This document shows positions 8,457-29,078 of a DNA stretch of 39,028 nt, piece after piece. The notes under the pieces are model-generated. The model searched no databases and was not told where the DNA came from. It saw nothing but the letters and a program-made list of their open reading frames with translations. Position numbers and translations under genes: made by a program. Position 1 is the first letter of the stretch. Each line of letters opens with the position of its first letter. The DNA comes from an uncultured bacterium (GTDB lineage Bacteria > Cyanobacteriota > Vampirovibrionia > Gastranaerophilales > Gastranaerophilaceae), in contig CADBQW010000011.1 of assembly GCA_902796925.1 (NCBI GenBank), forward strand, positions 1 to 39,028, written 5' to 3'.

Positions 8457-8945
8457 ATGTTAAGGAAAAACTTATTTATACTTATAATACTATCAGTTTT
8501 TTTGAGTCAAAGTGCGTATTGTGATGATTCCCAAAAAGATGTATTAATAAAGAGTATTTTGACCAAGTTTTCTGATTACAACATTACAATTAATGATACG
8601 CCGAGAGGTATTGTAACAAGTTTTCCTGAAAATGTAATTTTTGAAAATAATTCAATTAAATTGAGTTGCTGTGGGGAATTAATACTTTCTCAAATAGGAC
8701 AAATTTTAAATTCAATTGAGAATTCTTGCACAATAGAAGGTCATTCTTCAAGATTTAAAGGATTGGAAGCATTTGAGGCATCAATTATGAAAGCGGATGT
8801 TGTAGGACAATATTTAATAACGCAAAACCCAAATTTGCAAAACAGAATCTTTACTGTCGGATTAAGTGATTTTGAACCGATAGAAGCAACTGAAAACAAC
8901 AATAGGATTGATATTGTATTTTTCGCTTACGAACTTATGCGATAA
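8457..8945 (+). CDS. Exported OmpA-like protein with degenerate peptidoglycan-binding motif
   Basis: Signal peptide 1-22 (hydrophobic, ending S-A-Y-C). Residues 57-156 follow the OmpA/Pal/MotB C-terminal fold: a first strand, a helix L-I-L-S-Q-I-G-Q-I-L, then I-E-G-H-S-S (93-98), a long helix, G-L-S-D-F-E-P-I (135-142) and N-N-N-R-I-D-I-V (147-154). In true members the G-H-T-D Asp and an Arg in the following helix bind diaminopimelate. Here these positions read Ser and Lys, so peptidoglycan binding may be lost. At 162 aa it has no barrel or lipidation signal. A GATAAT box ends 6 nt before the ATG. Its 3' end overlaps the sigma factor gene by 11 nt, convergent. Confidence 0.65.
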   Translation: MLRKNLFILIILSVFLSQSAYCDDSQKDVLIKSILTKFSDYNITINDTPRGIVTSFPENVIFENNSIKLSCCGELILSQIGQILNSIENSCTIEGHSSRFKGLEAFEASIMKADVVGQYLITQNPNLQNRIFTVGLSDFEPIEATENNNRIDIVFFAYELMR

Positions 8946-9759
8946 TTTTTTGTTGAAGTCGTTGAGTACGTTCTTCGCTAAGAATATTCTTCAACTTCAT
9001 AATTCCTTGAGCATGAATTTGGCAAACTCTTGATTCAGACATATTCAAAGTCCCGCCAATTTCTTTCATAGTCATATTTTCCTGATAGTAAAGAACGATT
9101 ACAATTCTTTCTCTTTCCGGTAATCTTTTCAATGCGTCTTGCAAAGCCTCCTCGACATTTTTTTCTTCCATTTTTTCTTGGGGATTGAGTTTGTACGTGT
9201 CTTGAACTGTATCTATAATTTCGTAACTATCATCTGCAGTCCCGCGTTTTTCATATAAGGAAGTTATGGTTGTGTCTTCCGAGAGAATTTTCATAATTTT
9301 ATCGGGGTCGATATTCACAGCTTGCGCAATTTCTTGAGTTGTTGGCATGCGACCAAGTTTTTGTTTTAGTTCTTCTTGAGCGTTTTTAATCGCTTTAATT
9401 TTAACCCTTAAACTTCTCGGCAAAAAATCTTCTTGTCTTATTCTATCAATAATAGCACCGCGAATTCTTATAAGTGCATAGGTTTCAAATCTGGTATTTT
9501 TCTGTGCTGAAAATTTTTCAACAGCATTAATTAAACCTTCAACACCATATCCTGTTATATCGTCGACCGAAACTGTAGCAGGCAAAGTAACCTTTATACG
9601 CCCCACAACATATCTTACCAGATATAAATACTGAACAATCAGTTCATCTCTGGTTTCTTTGACTTTATTTGAAAGGTACTTTTCCCAAAGCGAAACCAAT
9701 TCATCTTGAGAAAGACGTTTTATTTTGCTATAATTTGTAGATTCCAAGCCCTCAGTCAT
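8935..9759 (-). CDS. RNA polymerase sigma factor of the FliA/WhiG (sigma-28) family
   Basis: Alternative sigma factor. Region 2 is seen in the R-F-E-T-Y-A-L-I-R-I-R-G-A-I-I-D stretch followed by R-Q-E-D-F-L-P-R-S, characteristic of sigma-28 proteins. Region 3 follows, and region 4 ends in a helix-turn-helix (M-T-M-K-E-I-G, S-E-S-R-V-C-Q-I-H). The frame can be extended 4 codons to a TTG at 9771, but I prefer the ATG at 9759, giving 274 aa. No anti-sigma factor (FlgM) or flagellar gene is in the window, so its regulon is not evident here. A TATAAA box lies about 25 nt upstream. Confidence 0.9.
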   Translation of the reverse strand: MTEGLESTNYSKIKRLSQDELVSLWEKYLSNKVKETRDELIVQYLYLVRYVVGRIKVTLPATVSVDDITGYGVEGLINAVEKFSAQKNTRFETYALIRIRGAIIDRIRQEDFLPRSLRVKIKAIKNAQEELKQKLGRMPTTQEIAQAVNIDPDKIMKILSEDTTITSLYEKRGTADDSYEIIDTVQDTYKLNPQEKMEEKNVEEALQDALKRLPERERIVIVLYYQENMTMKEIGGTLNMSESRVCQIHAQGIMKLKNILSEERTQRLQQKIIA

Positions 9760-12744: not shown

Positions 12745-14550
12745 TTAATAGAATCGAGACCTTCTGTTTGCAACCATGCTTACAAGGCGGCTTGCACGCG
12801 AACTCATTACAAAGTTTCCGTTAGACCTCCTTCTTCCATAGTACCCCATAGGGTTTGTAGAGTATTGTTGCGGCATTATCGCAGCAGAAGAATTTAAGGA
12901 AGTTGATAAGCCTGATGCTAGTTTATCTATATCTTTAAATGCATCCTCATTTTGCTTTTTGAGTGATTTTATTTTTTCTTCCGTTGCCTCTGCAAAGTCA
13001 GACATAAGCTCTTTTCTTGTAGCTTTTATTTCTTGAGCAGTTTTGGTTTCTGCTTTTGTCTTTATATCTTTGTATGCCTCAGTAGCATCAGTAATACGTT
13101 TATTTTCACCATCAACACCGGCAAGTAAATCTGCTTGAACAGCTTTTATAGTCTGCTTTTTAGATAAATCACCAATAGCACCGTTACCGTCTTTTCCAAC
13201 TATTTCTTTTGCATCTTTCATCGCTTTCAATTTGTTTTCTGCATCTTCAACTTTTGTATTAATAGATTTCATTTCGGCCTCAAAACCTTTTGTGCTCTTT
13301 ATTGCTGCAGAACCGGCCTGAATAGCACATGCTGAACTTTGCAATGCTGCAGCCCAATTTCCGTCAGCAACATTGGCTGCCGTTTTGGCTACATTTGCCG
13401 TACAAACCCCATATTCACCTACGGTTTTAGCGGTATATCCGATTTTTTCCGCCCACTCGCCTGTTACTATTAGTGCGGTGGCCAGACTTGATGCTATACC
13501 CAGAGTGCTTCCTGCAAGTGCATTACCCGCGACAATTAATCCTGTACCAACAAGTTGTAACGCTTGTCCGCCCTGTTGTACAAGGGTAGAATACTTTTCT
13601 GCTTCATTTGCGAAATGTAAGAAGTCATTATTTTCAGCTTCACTTGCTTTCATCGATTCTTGCATTCTTAGTTGATTTTGGTAGAACGCATTTTGAGTTC
13701 TGTTCATGTTGCTGAGAGAATGGAGACATCTCATATTAAGCGTTTTAATTTTTGCGCCATATTGTTCTCCGATACTCAATTTTGACTCAAGTTGAGCCTC
13801 AAGAGATTCGAGTTCAGAAGCGTTGTCTCCGGCATTCCCGGATTTCTTTGGTATTCCTGATTTGTTTTCGTTTTCTCCGGCAAGAGTCAAAGAATAAACA
13901 CTCTTATTAAATCCATTCTCGTCAAAGTTATTTGATTCTTGCAACATTTTTATTTGTGATTGAATAGATTCAATCTCTTTAGAATTTCGATCTGCATCTT
14001 TTATTGTTTTTTCAAGTTCTTTTTGGTCTTTTTTATATTCAGTTTGCTCTCTTTTTAATTGTTTTTCAAAATTCTTTTGCTGTTTTTTAATATCTTTCTG
14101 GTCTTTTTGAGCCTGAACACTCATCTTTTCGGAAATTTTGGCATTATTTTGAGCGGTAGCTGAATATTCTTTGCTTTCCTCTGTTTGCGACTTAATTTTT
14201 TCGCCTTGAGATTTGACATCGGAAATTTTAGACTTTGCGTTATTTTTATTTATATTTAAACTGTTTTCCAATGATTTGTTGGATTTAGAATTTGTGGTTC
14301 CGTTAGTTAAGTTGTTATTAGAAGGAAATGGGTCATGGTGCTTGTTATTAACAGTTTTTTGAGTTGTTTTACTATTTGAGCTAACCATGGAAAGACTATT
14401 TTCTAAAGAAAAAATAGAACCATTTTTACTCATAGCTTTTTGCTCAGGAGTTTGAGTTTTTTGTGCAGAAGAGGTAGATACAGGTTTTATTTGCTGTATC
14501 TTCTTATACATCTCTAAATTAACTTGTTGATTATTTAAACCAACTGCCAT
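12745..14550 (-). CDS. 601-aa coiled-coil protein with a central hydrophobic region, function unknown
   Basis: Not recognised. The sequence shows a polar Ser/Asn/Lys-rich N-terminus (1-105), Lys/Gln/Glu-rich coiled coils (about 106-205 and 245-320), a hydrophobic hairpin-like stretch (about 325-365), an Ala-rich segment (370-418), another coiled coil (420-545) and a basic tail with four Arg clusters (573-599). There is no signal peptide. This coiled-coil, two-hydrophobic-segment, coiled-coil order resembles type III secretion translocators such as IpaB/SipB. That is topology only, and no secretion genes are present. The ATG follows a GGAGAG site. Its leader and promoter resemble those of two small genes in this window (18696 and 28908). 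Confidence 0.75.
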   Translation of the reverse strand: MAVGLNNQQVNLEMYKKIQQIKPVSTSSAQKTQTPEQKAMSKNGSIFSLENSLSMVSSNSKTTQKTVNNKHHDPFPSNNNLTNGTTNSKSNKSLENSLNINKNNAKSKISDVKSQGEKIKSQTEESKEYSATAQNNAKISEKMSVQAQKDQKDIKKQQKNFEKQLKREQTEYKKDQKELEKTIKDADRNSKEIESIQSQIKMLQESNNFDENGFNKSVYSLTLAGENENKSGIPKKSGNAGDNASELESLEAQLESKLSIGEQYGAKIKTLNMRCLHSLSNMNRTQNAFYQNQLRMQESMKASEAENNDFLHFANEAEKYSTLVQQGGQALQLVGTGLIVAGNALAGSTLGIASSLATALIVTGEWAEKIGYTAKTVGEYGVCTANVAKTAANVADGNWAAALQSSACAIQAGSAAIKSTKGFEAEMKSINTKVEDAENKLKAMKDAKEIVGKDGNGAIGDLSKKQTIKAVQADLLAGVDGENKRITDATEAYKDIKTKAETKTAQEIKATRKELMSDFAEATEEKIKSLKKQNEDAFKDIDKLASGLSTSLNSSAAIMPQQYSTNPMGYYGRRRSNGNFVMSSRASRLVSMVANRRSRFY

Positions 14551-14633
14551 TAAAGCTCTCCAAATATTTGCTCTCTAAATAGATAAAAAAATTTAGGAAA
14601 GCTTGATTTCAGGCAATACAATAATTGTTACAT
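14551..14633 (-). promoter_or_regulatory. Upstream control region shared with two small genes
   Basis: Reading the minus strand: ATGTAACA (14633-14626), 15 nt, GAAATCAA (14610-14603), then AGAGAGC (14576-14570) and a GGAGAG ribosome binding site (14561-14556), 5 nt before the ATG. The first two blocks occur with the same 15-nt spacing upstream of the 56-aa gene at 28908. Confidence 0.55.
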
Positions 14634-14666
14634 TTTTTAATAATTTATCATTTGTGAATTCATAAC

Positions 14667-18481: not shown

Positions 18482-18580
18482 AAGTCTCTGCTCCTTTATA
18501 ATATTTCACAACATTTTATAACAAATTTTCAATTGTTGCAAGTATTATTCTTGCCCACGATAAATAATACAGCTATAATA

Positions 18581-18695
18581 TGTAAACTTATGTAAACATT
18601 TTTATATAAATAGTATATAAAAAGTCAATAATTTTGAGTTCGTAGTTTTTATAAATATGTAAGAGAGAGAAAATAAATTTTGAGAGAGGTTTAAG
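18581..18695 (+). promoter_or_regulatory. Upstream control region of the 58-aa gene
   Basis: Contains ATGTAAAC (18590-18597), a TCAATAATTTTG block (18625-18636), AGAGAG (18662-18667) and a GAGAGAGG ribosome binding site (18682-18689), 6 nt before the ATG. The order matches the region before the 56-aa gene, with a longer first spacer. Confidence 0.5.
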
Positions 18696-18872
18696 ATGGC
18701 TCAGTTGTTATTATTTAAAGATACCGTAACAGATACTTACAAAACCACATCCGAAGCTATAAAAAATGTTAAATTATCTGACAAAATGATAATAAGAAAA
18801 TCTTTGGTAGACCTAATGAAGGAGTCCTTTTTCAGGGGTTCAAACCGTTACGGGTACAATTTCATTGCATAA
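18696..18872 (+). CDS. 58-aa small protein, function unknown
   Basis: Small ORF with a strong GAGAGAGG ribosome binding site. The product is predicted mostly helical, starts M-A-Q-L-L-L-F-K-D, has charged central segments and ends R-Y-G-Y-N-F-I-A. It has no signal peptide and no membrane helix. The N-F-I-A tetrapeptide also occurs in the 56-aa protein at 28908, whose leader (GAGAGG then T-T-x-A-G before ATGGC) is nearly the same. A terminator-like hairpin follows at 18938. I infer a real, separately expressed gene. Confidence 0.65.
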   Translation: MAQLLLFKDTVTDTYKTTSEAIKNVKLSDKMIIRKSLVDLMKESFFRGSNRYGYNFIA

Positions 18873-26497: not shown

Positions 26498-28744
26498 TTA
26501 TGAATTAAGAACCTTCATTGTTTCTTGTATTGCCGATTCAGATCTTGCGAGGGCATCATCTCCGGGTTTTGTATCATACGAGTTTGTTTGAACACCCTGC
26601 GGTGACGGCATATAGCCTCTTGCCGGTTCAATATCGCCCGCTTTGACAGGTGTTGGAGACGGAAGATAACTGTACGTTTTTGCATTTGCCGGCTCTTGTG
26701 ATTGGAACCCTTGCTGAGCTTGGGTTGCTTGAGGTTGTTGAGCTGGAGTTCTGTACTTATCTAACATGTTACCGCCATTTTGTTGTTGTTGTGCCTGTTG
26801 TTGAAAGGCTTTTTGCATTTCGATTAGTCTCGCCTGCTGTTCAGGAGTGAGTTCACCTTGTTTGGGTTCTTCTTCTTTTCCTTCGTCAAGAACGGAATGT
26901 TCAGGTTTTCCGAATATTTTGTGACATCCTTTTACTACGGTATTTCCGATTAGCGGCATAAGTGTTGCCATACAGAATATAAATCTGAATGCAGAACCGC
27001 CAAATTCTTTCGCGTAGAATTTCGGATTTCTAAATACATTTTTGAATAAGTTTCCTATTCCTTTAGGGGTAAATTCAATCTTTTCAATAGCATGTTTAGA
27101 ATATGGTCTTATTTGTCCTAAGCCTATTGTTGTAATCTGTCCTATCTTACGGGCAATACGCGTAAAGATATTTTTACCTTTTGGTAAACCTGCAGAACCT
27201 TTTTTGTATGCTTTTTTTCTAAAATCTTTTAAGTCTTGATAAGATTTTTTCCACGCATCCTTACTTTCAAATTCAGCGGCTTTGGCTTTTGCGTTATGTT
27301 CATTAACCATATTTTTATATTGTTTAACTTCATCTTTAGTCATACCAATGTTCTGAAGGTCACCGATCTTGTAAAGTGCTTTTATAGCAAAAGGCATACA
27401 TGCAAAGAATGCAACCAATTCTGTTAATCTTTCTGCAAATGTTGCGACTTTATCACCTTTTTTGGCCTGAGCAGTTCTTATTACCGCTTCGGCTAAGAAC
27501 CATGCCTGAATAATTGCAACCAACTTACCGCCGGCTACACGGTTCGTTGCACCTTCGAGAATGATATTGCCATATTTGCCGAAAGCTTTACCCAAAGCCG
27601 ATTTTGGCGCGTGTGTTGCAAGGTTTGTATCTTTCATAACTTGAGCGAGTTTGGCATCTTTTTCCCAATTGCCCAATTCTGCAACAAGTTTATTTCTGTA
27701 TTCTGACATGTATACATTACGACCGCGAACGAATCCCTTAAATCTATGCCACCAATTACCGGTTCCGTGAGTATATCTGCGGCAATACATACTATTATCT
27801 GCTTCGTTAAGTGCTTTAAGAACATCAGGCATTTTTTCTTGAATATTTTCTTCAATATGTTTCCAATGTTTCAAACTCTTATAACCTGAAGCCTTTGCTT
27901 TCATGTTTTGAAGCACTTTAAACTTGTCTGCAGGATTTGTTATTGCTTGGAATTTCTCTAAACTATCAATTCCACCAAAACAATACTTTCCATTGCCCGG
28001 TTTTGACAGAAGTTGAAATTCGGCTTCCTGAATAACATTTAATTGAGCTTCGCTTATACTGGCAGATTTGCCAGGATTCAATTTCGTTTTTAATTTTTCC
28101 CAAAAACCGGACTGTCCCGAGGCCGCATCATATTTAGTCCGTACTTCTTCAATGAACTTTTTATCTGCACCGTAACAATCCAAATCCTCTGGGAATTGTA
28201 CACTTTCTAAAAATCCATTCTGAACTTGCGGATAATCAAACAATTGTATGCCCTTCATTCCGTTTGCTTGACCTTTTACCATATCCAATTCAGGACTTGT
28301 GATACCATCGTTTAAACTCCTATATATTGCAGAATTGTCGTAGATTTTTTTGCGAATTTGCGATTTGTATTCACTGATTTTAGATCTTAAATTTTTAAAC
28401 CAATTTGCCTTTCCAAGTCTGCTATTATTAAATGAATTTGTAATTTTGTCTCCTGCATTAGTAAGTTTGTATTCAATAGTATCTTCGTAATTTCCGCGGC
28501 ACCTTTGAGCAAACTTATCCATACCGTAGCCAAGACCAACCATTATGGGAGCTGCAACCGCCATTTGTAATGCTGGATTTATCTCTGAAAGCTGTGATGC
28601 ACGGTTGCCAACATACGAATCTTGAATCTGCTCTTGCAACTGCTTTGGCATATCTTCAACACCTTGCATAGGCTGTCCGTTTTGCCCCACTTGAGCACGC
28701 ATTCCGGTTAAATTTGGCTGAGTATTTACATCAAAATTTTCCAT
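26498..28744 (-). CDS. 748-aa membrane-associated protein, function unknown
   Basis: Not recognised. No signal peptide: the N-terminus is Gln-rich and polar. Hydrophobic segments lie at about 58-75 (flanked by Gly), 405-424, 440-460 and 584-604, separated by long basic helical regions. The C-terminal 120 residues are Gln/Pro-rich low complexity (runs such as A-Q-Q-Q-Q-N) with two Y-x-P-S-P repeats (693-697 and 711-715). The ATG follows AGGAGA. Composition resembles the Gln-rich proteins at 12745 and 14748, although I see no real alignment. It is divergent from the 56-aa gene. Confidence 0.75.
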   Translation of the reverse strand: MENFDVNTQPNLTGMRAQVGQNGQPMQGVEDMPKQLQEQIQDSYVGNRASQLSEINPALQMAVAAPIMVGLGYGMDKFAQRCRGNYEDTIEYKLTNAGDKITNSFNNSRLGKANWFKNLRSKISEYKSQIRKKIYDNSAIYRSLNDGITSPELDMVKGQANGMKGIQLFDYPQVQNGFLESVQFPEDLDCYGADKKFIEEVRTKYDAASGQSGFWEKLKTKLNPGKSASISEAQLNVIQEAEFQLLSKPGNGKYCFGGIDSLEKFQAITNPADKFKVLQNMKAKASGYKSLKHWKHIEENIQEKMPDVLKALNEADNSMYCRRYTHGTGNWWHRFKGFVRGRNVYMSEYRNKLVAELGNWEKDAKLAQVMKDTNLATHAPKSALGKAFGKYGNIILEGATNRVAGGKLVAIIQAWFLAEAVIRTAQAKKGDKVATFAERLTELVAFFACMPFAIKALYKIGDLQNIGMTKDEVKQYKNMVNEHNAKAKAAEFESKDAWKKSYQDLKDFRKKAYKKGSAGLPKGKNIFTRIARKIGQITTIGLGQIRPYSKHAIEKIEFTPKGIGNLFKNVFRNPKFYAKEFGGSAFRFIFCMATLMPLIGNTVVKGCHKIFGKPEHSVLDEGKEEEPKQGELTPEQQARLIEMQKAFQQQAQQQQNGGNMLDKYRTPAQQPQATQAQQGFQSQEPANAKTYSYLPSPTPVKAGDIEPARGYMPSPQGVQTNSYDTKPGDDALARSESAIQETMKVLNS

Positions 28745-28810
28745 TAACTACTTTTCTCCTATATAAATATAAAACCCTGAAAACCATGAAAATTGCTATA
28801 TTTTAGCATT

Positions 28811-28907
28811 TGTAAAGTTATGTAACAAAATTTCCAAATTATGAAATCAATAATATTGTATATACTTTATATATATACAGAGAGCGAATTAATAAGAGAG
28901 GCTTGAG
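28811..28907 (+). promoter_or_regulatory. Upstream control region of the 56-aa gene
   Basis: ATGTAACA (28820-28827), 15 nt, GAAATCAA (28843-28850), then AGAGAGC (28879-28885) and a GAGAGG ribosome binding site (28896-28901), 6 nt before the ATG. The blocks match those before the 601-aa gene, with the same 15-nt spacing, and also the region before the 58-aa gene. Confidence 0.55.
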
Positions 28908-29078
28908 ATGGCAGTTGCAAATTTAAAAAAGATTGACAAACATTTGAAAGATATGTATCAAAACCAGGTTACAACTCCGGCTGTTCCTCAAGAACCCTAT
29001 GTTGACCGTTCAGAAGTGTTATTTGCTCAGATGAATTTCATCGCAATGGCAAATAAAGAAGCTTTACATTTAATTTAA
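28908..29078 (+). CDS. 56-aa small protein, function unknown
   Basis: Small ORF with a GAGAGG ribosome binding site and its own strong terminator. The product starts M-A-V-A-N-L-K-K-I-D, has a helical first third, a Pro-containing middle (V-P-Q-E-P-Y, 26-31) and a helical end with N-F-I-A (43-46). It has no signal peptide or membrane helix. It shares promoter blocks and leader with the 58-aa and 601-aa genes. Function unknown. Confidence 0.65.
   Translation: MAVANLKKIDKHLKDMYQNQVTTPAVPQEPYVDRSEVLFAQMNFIAMANKEALHLI

Follow-up and report, generated by a model that had tools for sequence, protein, structure and literature searches.

Introduction

RpaB is a light and redox regulator of Cyanobacteria, and the Gastranaerophilales (Melainabacteria) are non-photosynthetic relatives of the Cyanobacteria from animal guts.

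The cyanobacterial protein recognizes the HLR1 box, KTTACAWW-N2-KTTACAWW (PMC13421787, PMC11633204), which lies at -66 to -45 for activation and over the transcription start site for repression (PMC13421787). Homologs of RpaA, RpaB and NblS have been reported in Melainabacteria (PMC3787301, PMC4040986, PMC5877343), with the suggestion of another function (PMC3787301) or of ancestral features (PMC4040986). In their accessible portions, these reports, which share both regulator family and lineage with the system described here, present the genes without a binding site or target set. Searches of the freely accessible literature returned no RpaB target set for Melainabacteria, and a co-mention of HLR1 and Melainabacteria in one paper only, in an unrelated sense.

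The window analyzed here is a stretch of 39,028 nucleotides representing one contig of a 1.57-Mb draft genome. Its initial annotation proposed that three genes, encoding products of 56, 58 and 601 amino acids (aa), form a small regulon under an unnamed regulator. The comparisons reported below support a shared promoter and regulon, as far as sequence can, and allow RpaB to be proposed as the candidate regulator; "small" does not hold, since dozens of such promoters are present in the genome.

Results

The ordered blocks ATGTAACA and GAAATCAA are present, as originally described, upstream of the 56-aa gene (28819, plus strand) and the 601-aa gene (14633, minus strand), separated in both cases by 15 nt and followed in both by AGAGAGC and a GAGAG ribosome-binding site. 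By chance, the two blocks in this order and spacing would be expected ~1e-4 times in the window, and they are seen twice, before two unrelated genes. The 58-aa gene carries ATGTAAAC (twice), TCAATAAT, AGAGAG and GAGAGAGG in the order claimed, with a gap to the block of 27 nt instead of 15. The upstream element had been correctly reported in its second half, and its first TGTAA half-site (28811) had been overlooked, as had TATACTTTATATATA (28861-28875), the most conserved element, and a fourth gene, encoding a 748-aa protein.

Comparison of orthologous promoters revealed the full design, which recurs across numerous genera in three gene families unrelated to one another. It comprises a direct repeat, WWTGTAAM-NN-WWTGTAAM, a TGAAAT or GTCAAT block located 15 nt (56- and 601-aa genes) or 27 nt (58-aa gene) further on, and TTTATATA exactly 18 nt past the block, leading into AGAGAG. 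The corresponding features of the window are compiled in Table 1, where counts in orthologous promoters were controlled with dinucleotide shuffles of the upstream regions.

Table 1. Coordinates of predicted promoter elements and genes in the window, with their conservation.
Feature	Position	Strand	Sequence and conservation
HLR1-like site, 601-aa gene, degenerate first half (TATTAAAAAATGTAAC)	14627..14642	-	Relaxed HLR1 in 10/11 orthologous promoters; shuffles 0.00
TGAAAT block, 15 nt past TGTAAC	14606..14611	-	N15 in 8/8 measured 601-aa orthologs
TTTATCTA core and AGAGAG leader, 601-aa gene	14571..14587	-	N18 to TTTATA in 7 orthologs, N19 in 1
601-aa coiled-coil protein gene, central hydrophobic region	12745..14550	-	Relatives in 11/25 family genomes
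HLR1-type direct repeat, 58-aa gene	18579..18597	+	ATATGTAAACTTATGTAAAC; relaxed HLR1 in 10/18 orthologous promoters
GTCAAT block, 27 nt past HLR1-type site	18624..18629	+	N27 in 10/11 and N18 to TTTATA in 13/13 measured orthologs
TTTATAAA core and AGAGAG leader, 58-aa gene	18648..18667	+	
58-aa protein gene, C-terminal NFIA	18696..18872	+	Relatives in 21/25 family genomes
748-aa protein gene, divergent from 56-aa gene	26498..28744	-	Divergent and adjacent in 78/78 loci where a relative was found
TTTATATT core, 748-aa gene promoter	28755..28773	-	
AGCAAT block, divergent promoter	28788..28797	-	Block-N18-TTTATA on minus strand in 50/81 loci
HLR1-type direct repeat (WWTGTAAM-NN-WWTGTAAM), 56-aa gene, shared with divergent 748-aa gene	28809..28826	+	TGTAAAGTTATGTAAC at 28811-28826
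TGAAAT block, 15 nt past HLR1-type site	28842..28847	+	TGTAAM-N15-TGAAAT in 77/81 orthologous promoters; shuffles 0.00
TATACTTTATATATA, predicted core promoter / initiation region, 56-aa gene	28861..28875	+	81/81 orthologous promoters; shuffles 0.00
56-aa protein gene, two predicted helices	28908..29078	+	Orthologs, pN << pS

For the 56-aa gene, 113 candidate stretches of Gastranaerophilales-type contigs were collected and 80 kept; the closest named records among the carriers are largely Candidatus Gastranaerophilales or Melainabacteria genomes. The direct repeat is found in its strict form in 59 of the 81 orthologous promoters and in a relaxed form in 78 (0.00 and 0.25, respectively, in shuffles), the first half-site being degenerate in about a quarter of them. 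TGAAAT-N18-TTTATA is present in 80/81 loci (shuffles 0.00), with TATACTTTATATATA at a constant 13 nt from TGAAAT. Read in the opposite direction, the same box precedes, in 50/81 loci, an RKCAAT-type block that is joined by N18 to TTTATA; on this 748-aa side the gap from box to block is 13 or 24-25 nt in most loci. Orthologs of the 58-aa gene present the arrangement TGTAAM-N27-GTCAAT-N18-TTTATA.

The blocks are thus kept at exact spacings upstream of orthologs of the 56-, 58- and 601-aa genes. These data bear on the notion that the likeness of the promoters reflects a recent duplication of the leader, or merely an AT-rich genome, without common regulation. The window has a G+C content of ~35%, so that AT-rich blocks are easily found, and several short words are common to the three leaders. 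Dinucleotide-shuffled upstream regions, however, yield essentially no matches, and the architecture is not confined to one gene family or genus but is found in three unrelated families across many genera. Moreover, the spacings remain constant while the sequences between blocks have freely diverged, which points to function rather than recent copying. We therefore consider this explanation extremely improbable.

A separate feature of the 56-aa promoters is that their top-conserved element (core in 81/81) lies within an imperfect palindrome of the GTATATACTTTATATATAC type at 28859-28879. From its sequence, it is possible that a second factor binds at the start site of these promoters.

Both small open reading frames show strong suppression of amino-acid changes relative to silent ones (pN 0.10-0.18 versus pS 0.66-0.78 for the 56-aa gene; 0.16-0.29 versus 0.62-0.82 for the 58-aa gene), which, together with their widespread orthologs, identifies them as real genes. 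The NFIA tetrapeptide noted in both tiny products is invariant across each of the two families; it is internal in the 56-aa family and sits at the extreme C-terminus in the 58-aa family. The AlphaFold model of the 56-aa protein contains two helices, with moderate confidence (mean pLDDT 78), and a fold search with this model gave no structural match. Neither the 56-, 58- nor 601-aa proteins match Pfam or NCBIfam, and a PDB profile search with the 601-aa family returned no credible match, only weak coiled-coil ones (E >= 0.07). Searches for Rfam families and tRNAs found none in the window.

The occurrence of the direct repeat was assessed genome-wide by pattern searches against reversed-pattern controls. 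WTGTAAM...TGTAAM pairs peak at a period of exactly 10 bp, with 19 instances versus a mean of 2.9 at other periods (Poisson P ~3e-10), and the period-10 sites are preferentially intergenic (17/19 versus 7/22 at other periods; Fisher P 3e-4). The strict site pattern matches 15 times in the genome of the window versus once for the reversed control, a count in which, as in the other genome-wide searches, some compositional effect may remain, and enrichment extends to almost every one of the 25 family genomes. Of 100 sites in stretches from five to six genomes (those in overlapping stretches being counted twice), 93 fall between genes, and the long target open reading frames start at a median of 87 bp downstream of the site.

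The core downstream of the repeat is similarly overrepresented. Within the window, (TGAAAT or RKCAAT)-N17..19-TTTAT[AC][AT] matches four times, at the promoters of the 56-, 58-, 601- and 748-aa genes only, and its stricter N18-TTTATA version is seen three times versus 0.2 expected in random sequence. In the whole genome, the core alone, with HLR1 not required, has 29 + 5 matches versus 1 + 0 for the reversed controls. A relaxed HLR1 lies within 60 bp upstream of 14 of these 34 matches (chance ~0.15% each), and 13 of the 14 show gaps of either 14-17 nt or 27 nt, which differ by roughly one turn of the helix; a recognizable half-site is absent from 12 of the 34, some of these 12 being within coding sequence. 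A genome-wide search for TTTATAWA followed by AGAGAG gave four locations only, two of them being promoters of the window. The third shows the complete TGTAAC-N15-TGAAAT arrangement; in the fourth, an AGCAAT block is placed at N18 and is preceded at a greater distance by TTTACA repeats. The blocks do not occur at background frequency; the counts exceed their controls in the genome-wide, window and shuffle comparisons alike.

Genes downstream of the genome-wide cores are mostly lineage-specific. Among 53 predicted targets from six genomes, most have no match in Pfam or NCBIfam, and the only known family to recur, in two genomes, is that of a SpoIIIAA/R3H-type ATPase. One recurrent target family predicted in four genomes (L293, L314, L329, L330 and L351) is characterized by the N-terminus MG(L/M)SASQARLLSITAR; the one member tabulated has no Pfam or NCBIfam match, and our impression is that the amphipathic N-terminus recalls flagellin-type ends.

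HLR1 also defines a second class of promoters in four genomes (G039, G019, G016 and G011; sites L289, L291, L292, L293, L318, L329, L330, L336, L340, L342 and L344), in which a TATAAT-like element lies ~28 nt past the box. Directly after this element, around the expected transcription start, these promoters carry tandem repeats of the (ATAGG)n, (ATAGC)n or (ATATG)n type, the sequence of which suggests that they could be phase-variable by repeat slippage.

These two promoter classes are relevant to the proposal that what the genes share is chiefly a promoter for a dedicated alternative sigma, for instance one of the FliA/WhiG type, the HLR1-like repeat being an accessory site or upstream element. 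The (RKCAAT or TGAAAT)-N18-TTTATATA core is unlike TTGACA/TATAAT, it accounts for 34 genome-wide matches versus 1 control, some of them without a clear HLR1, and a FliA/WhiG-type sigma gene is located in the same window (8938-9759, minus strand; 239 bits, cut-off 189.6). Nonetheless, the sigma-28 -10 element GCCGATAA has no exact match in any of the three promoter families, and TAAA-N13..17-GCCGATA is found in 0/110 promoters. Furthermore, the presence of HLR1 before ordinary TATAAT promoters indicates that it acts independently of the TTTATATA-type core. A dedicated sigma factor as the main explanation hence appears unlikely to us, although the two proposals are compatible, since the core at which RpaB acts could be recognized by an alternative sigma. 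Given the absence of GCCGATAA from all three families, the idea that the FliA/WhiG sigma alone explains the promoters was rejected.

The direct repeat WWTGTAAM-NN-WWTGTAAM is the reverse complement of HLR1. In the window, strict HLR1 matches are located at 28809 and 18579, and the 601-aa gene matches with a degenerate first half only. The genome encodes three OmpR-type regulators. One of them (G000:C52, encoded outside the window) scores 359.5 bits against the NCBIfam RpaB equivalog model NF045944 (cut-off 330), with the other two far below the cut-off; it is ~70% identical to cyanobacterial orthologs, and 16 of the 17 positions of its recognition helix agree with cyanobacterial RpaB.

It is nevertheless conceivable that a different OmpR-family regulator, C109 or C24 (one of which is probably RpaA), is what binds the TGTAA repeat. 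Three such regulators are available in the genome and OmpR-type proteins generally bind direct repeats 10-11 bp apart, but C52 alone passes the RpaB cut-off, its recognition helix is nearly that of cyanobacterial RpaB and the motif matches the RpaB box. Binding by C109 or C24 in place of RpaB is accordingly judged very unlikely.

The strict site is also enriched in 10 PsaA/B-positive cyanobacterial genomes, with 58 sites versus 5 reversed controls. In three genomes of the same class and another family, RpaB is present (66-67% identity) and the strict site is not enriched, suggesting that the circuit may be differently shaped, or lost, in other branches. The position of Cys59 is occupied by Thr in 5/5 Gastranaerophilales RpaB proteins and by Cys in 3/3 cyanobacterial ones. 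According to a review (PMC13421787), a C59A substitution excluded direct redox sensing by Cys59, and the replacement by Thr is hence a difference of the regulator, not of its site. On the assumption that the -10 element is TATACT, the box would be positioned at approximately -64 to -47, or at approximately -71 to -54 if it is TATATA.

Discussion

Together, these results make it likely that the 56-, 58- and 601-aa genes, along with the 748-aa gene, are members of an RpaB/HLR1 regulon in the Gastranaerophilales, a reading drawn from orthology, motif identity and conserved promoter geometry. Phosphorylated RpaB would bind the HLR1-type direct repeat that lies upstream of each gene, its TGTAAM half-sites being spaced by 10 bp, as a head-to-tail dimer that presumably forms when the protein is phosphorylated. 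By analogy with cyanobacterial low-light genes, bound RpaB may then activate, rather than repress, RNA polymerase at the adjacent core, the fixed geometry of which is TGAAAT or RKCAAT, 18 nt, TTTATATA, then a start region that continues into AGAGAG, and lastly a GAGAG ribosome-binding site. The gap between site and block is ~13-17 nt or 24-27 nt; as these two classes differ by about one helical turn, the regulator should remain on one face of the DNA. Signal input may be provided by the NblS-type kinase reported for the group.

The proposed system resembles the cyanobacterial RpaB/HLR1 regulon in having an orthologous regulator, as assessed with a curated model, and the same direct-repeat box of 18 bp, which is reverse-complemented with respect to the genes. 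If TATACT is the -10 element, the box would also lie at a distance upstream of the promoter comparable to that of activated cyanobacterial HLR1 targets. It differs in that the host is non-photosynthetic and its RpaB lacks Cys59, in that the predicted targets are mostly lineage-specific proteins instead of photosystem or high-light genes, and in the characteristic TTTATATA core with fixed geometry. With FliA/WhiG (sigma-28) systems it shares the presence of a sigma gene in the window, but none of the three families has a TAAA/GCCGATAA promoter.

RpaB, like RpaA and NblS, has been known in Melainabacteria since 2013; the present analysis adds the predicted site, the exactly spaced promoter class and the list of putative targets. 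A broader reading, which we advance tentatively, is that the RpaB-HLR1 circuit might predate oxygenic photosynthesis, or at least be independent of it, and that in these dark gut relatives it could serve as a global regulator with its own promoter class, distinct from TTGACA/TATAAT, before dozens of lineage-specific genes, several tiny proteins included.

The predicted site, promoter class and targets, which constitute a first concrete target list, would make the role of RpaB without photosynthesis directly testable, and they bring dozens of genes without a name, together with two tiny proteins that are conserved, under a common regulatory label. The promoter design may likewise be usable for expression work in these uncultured bacteria.
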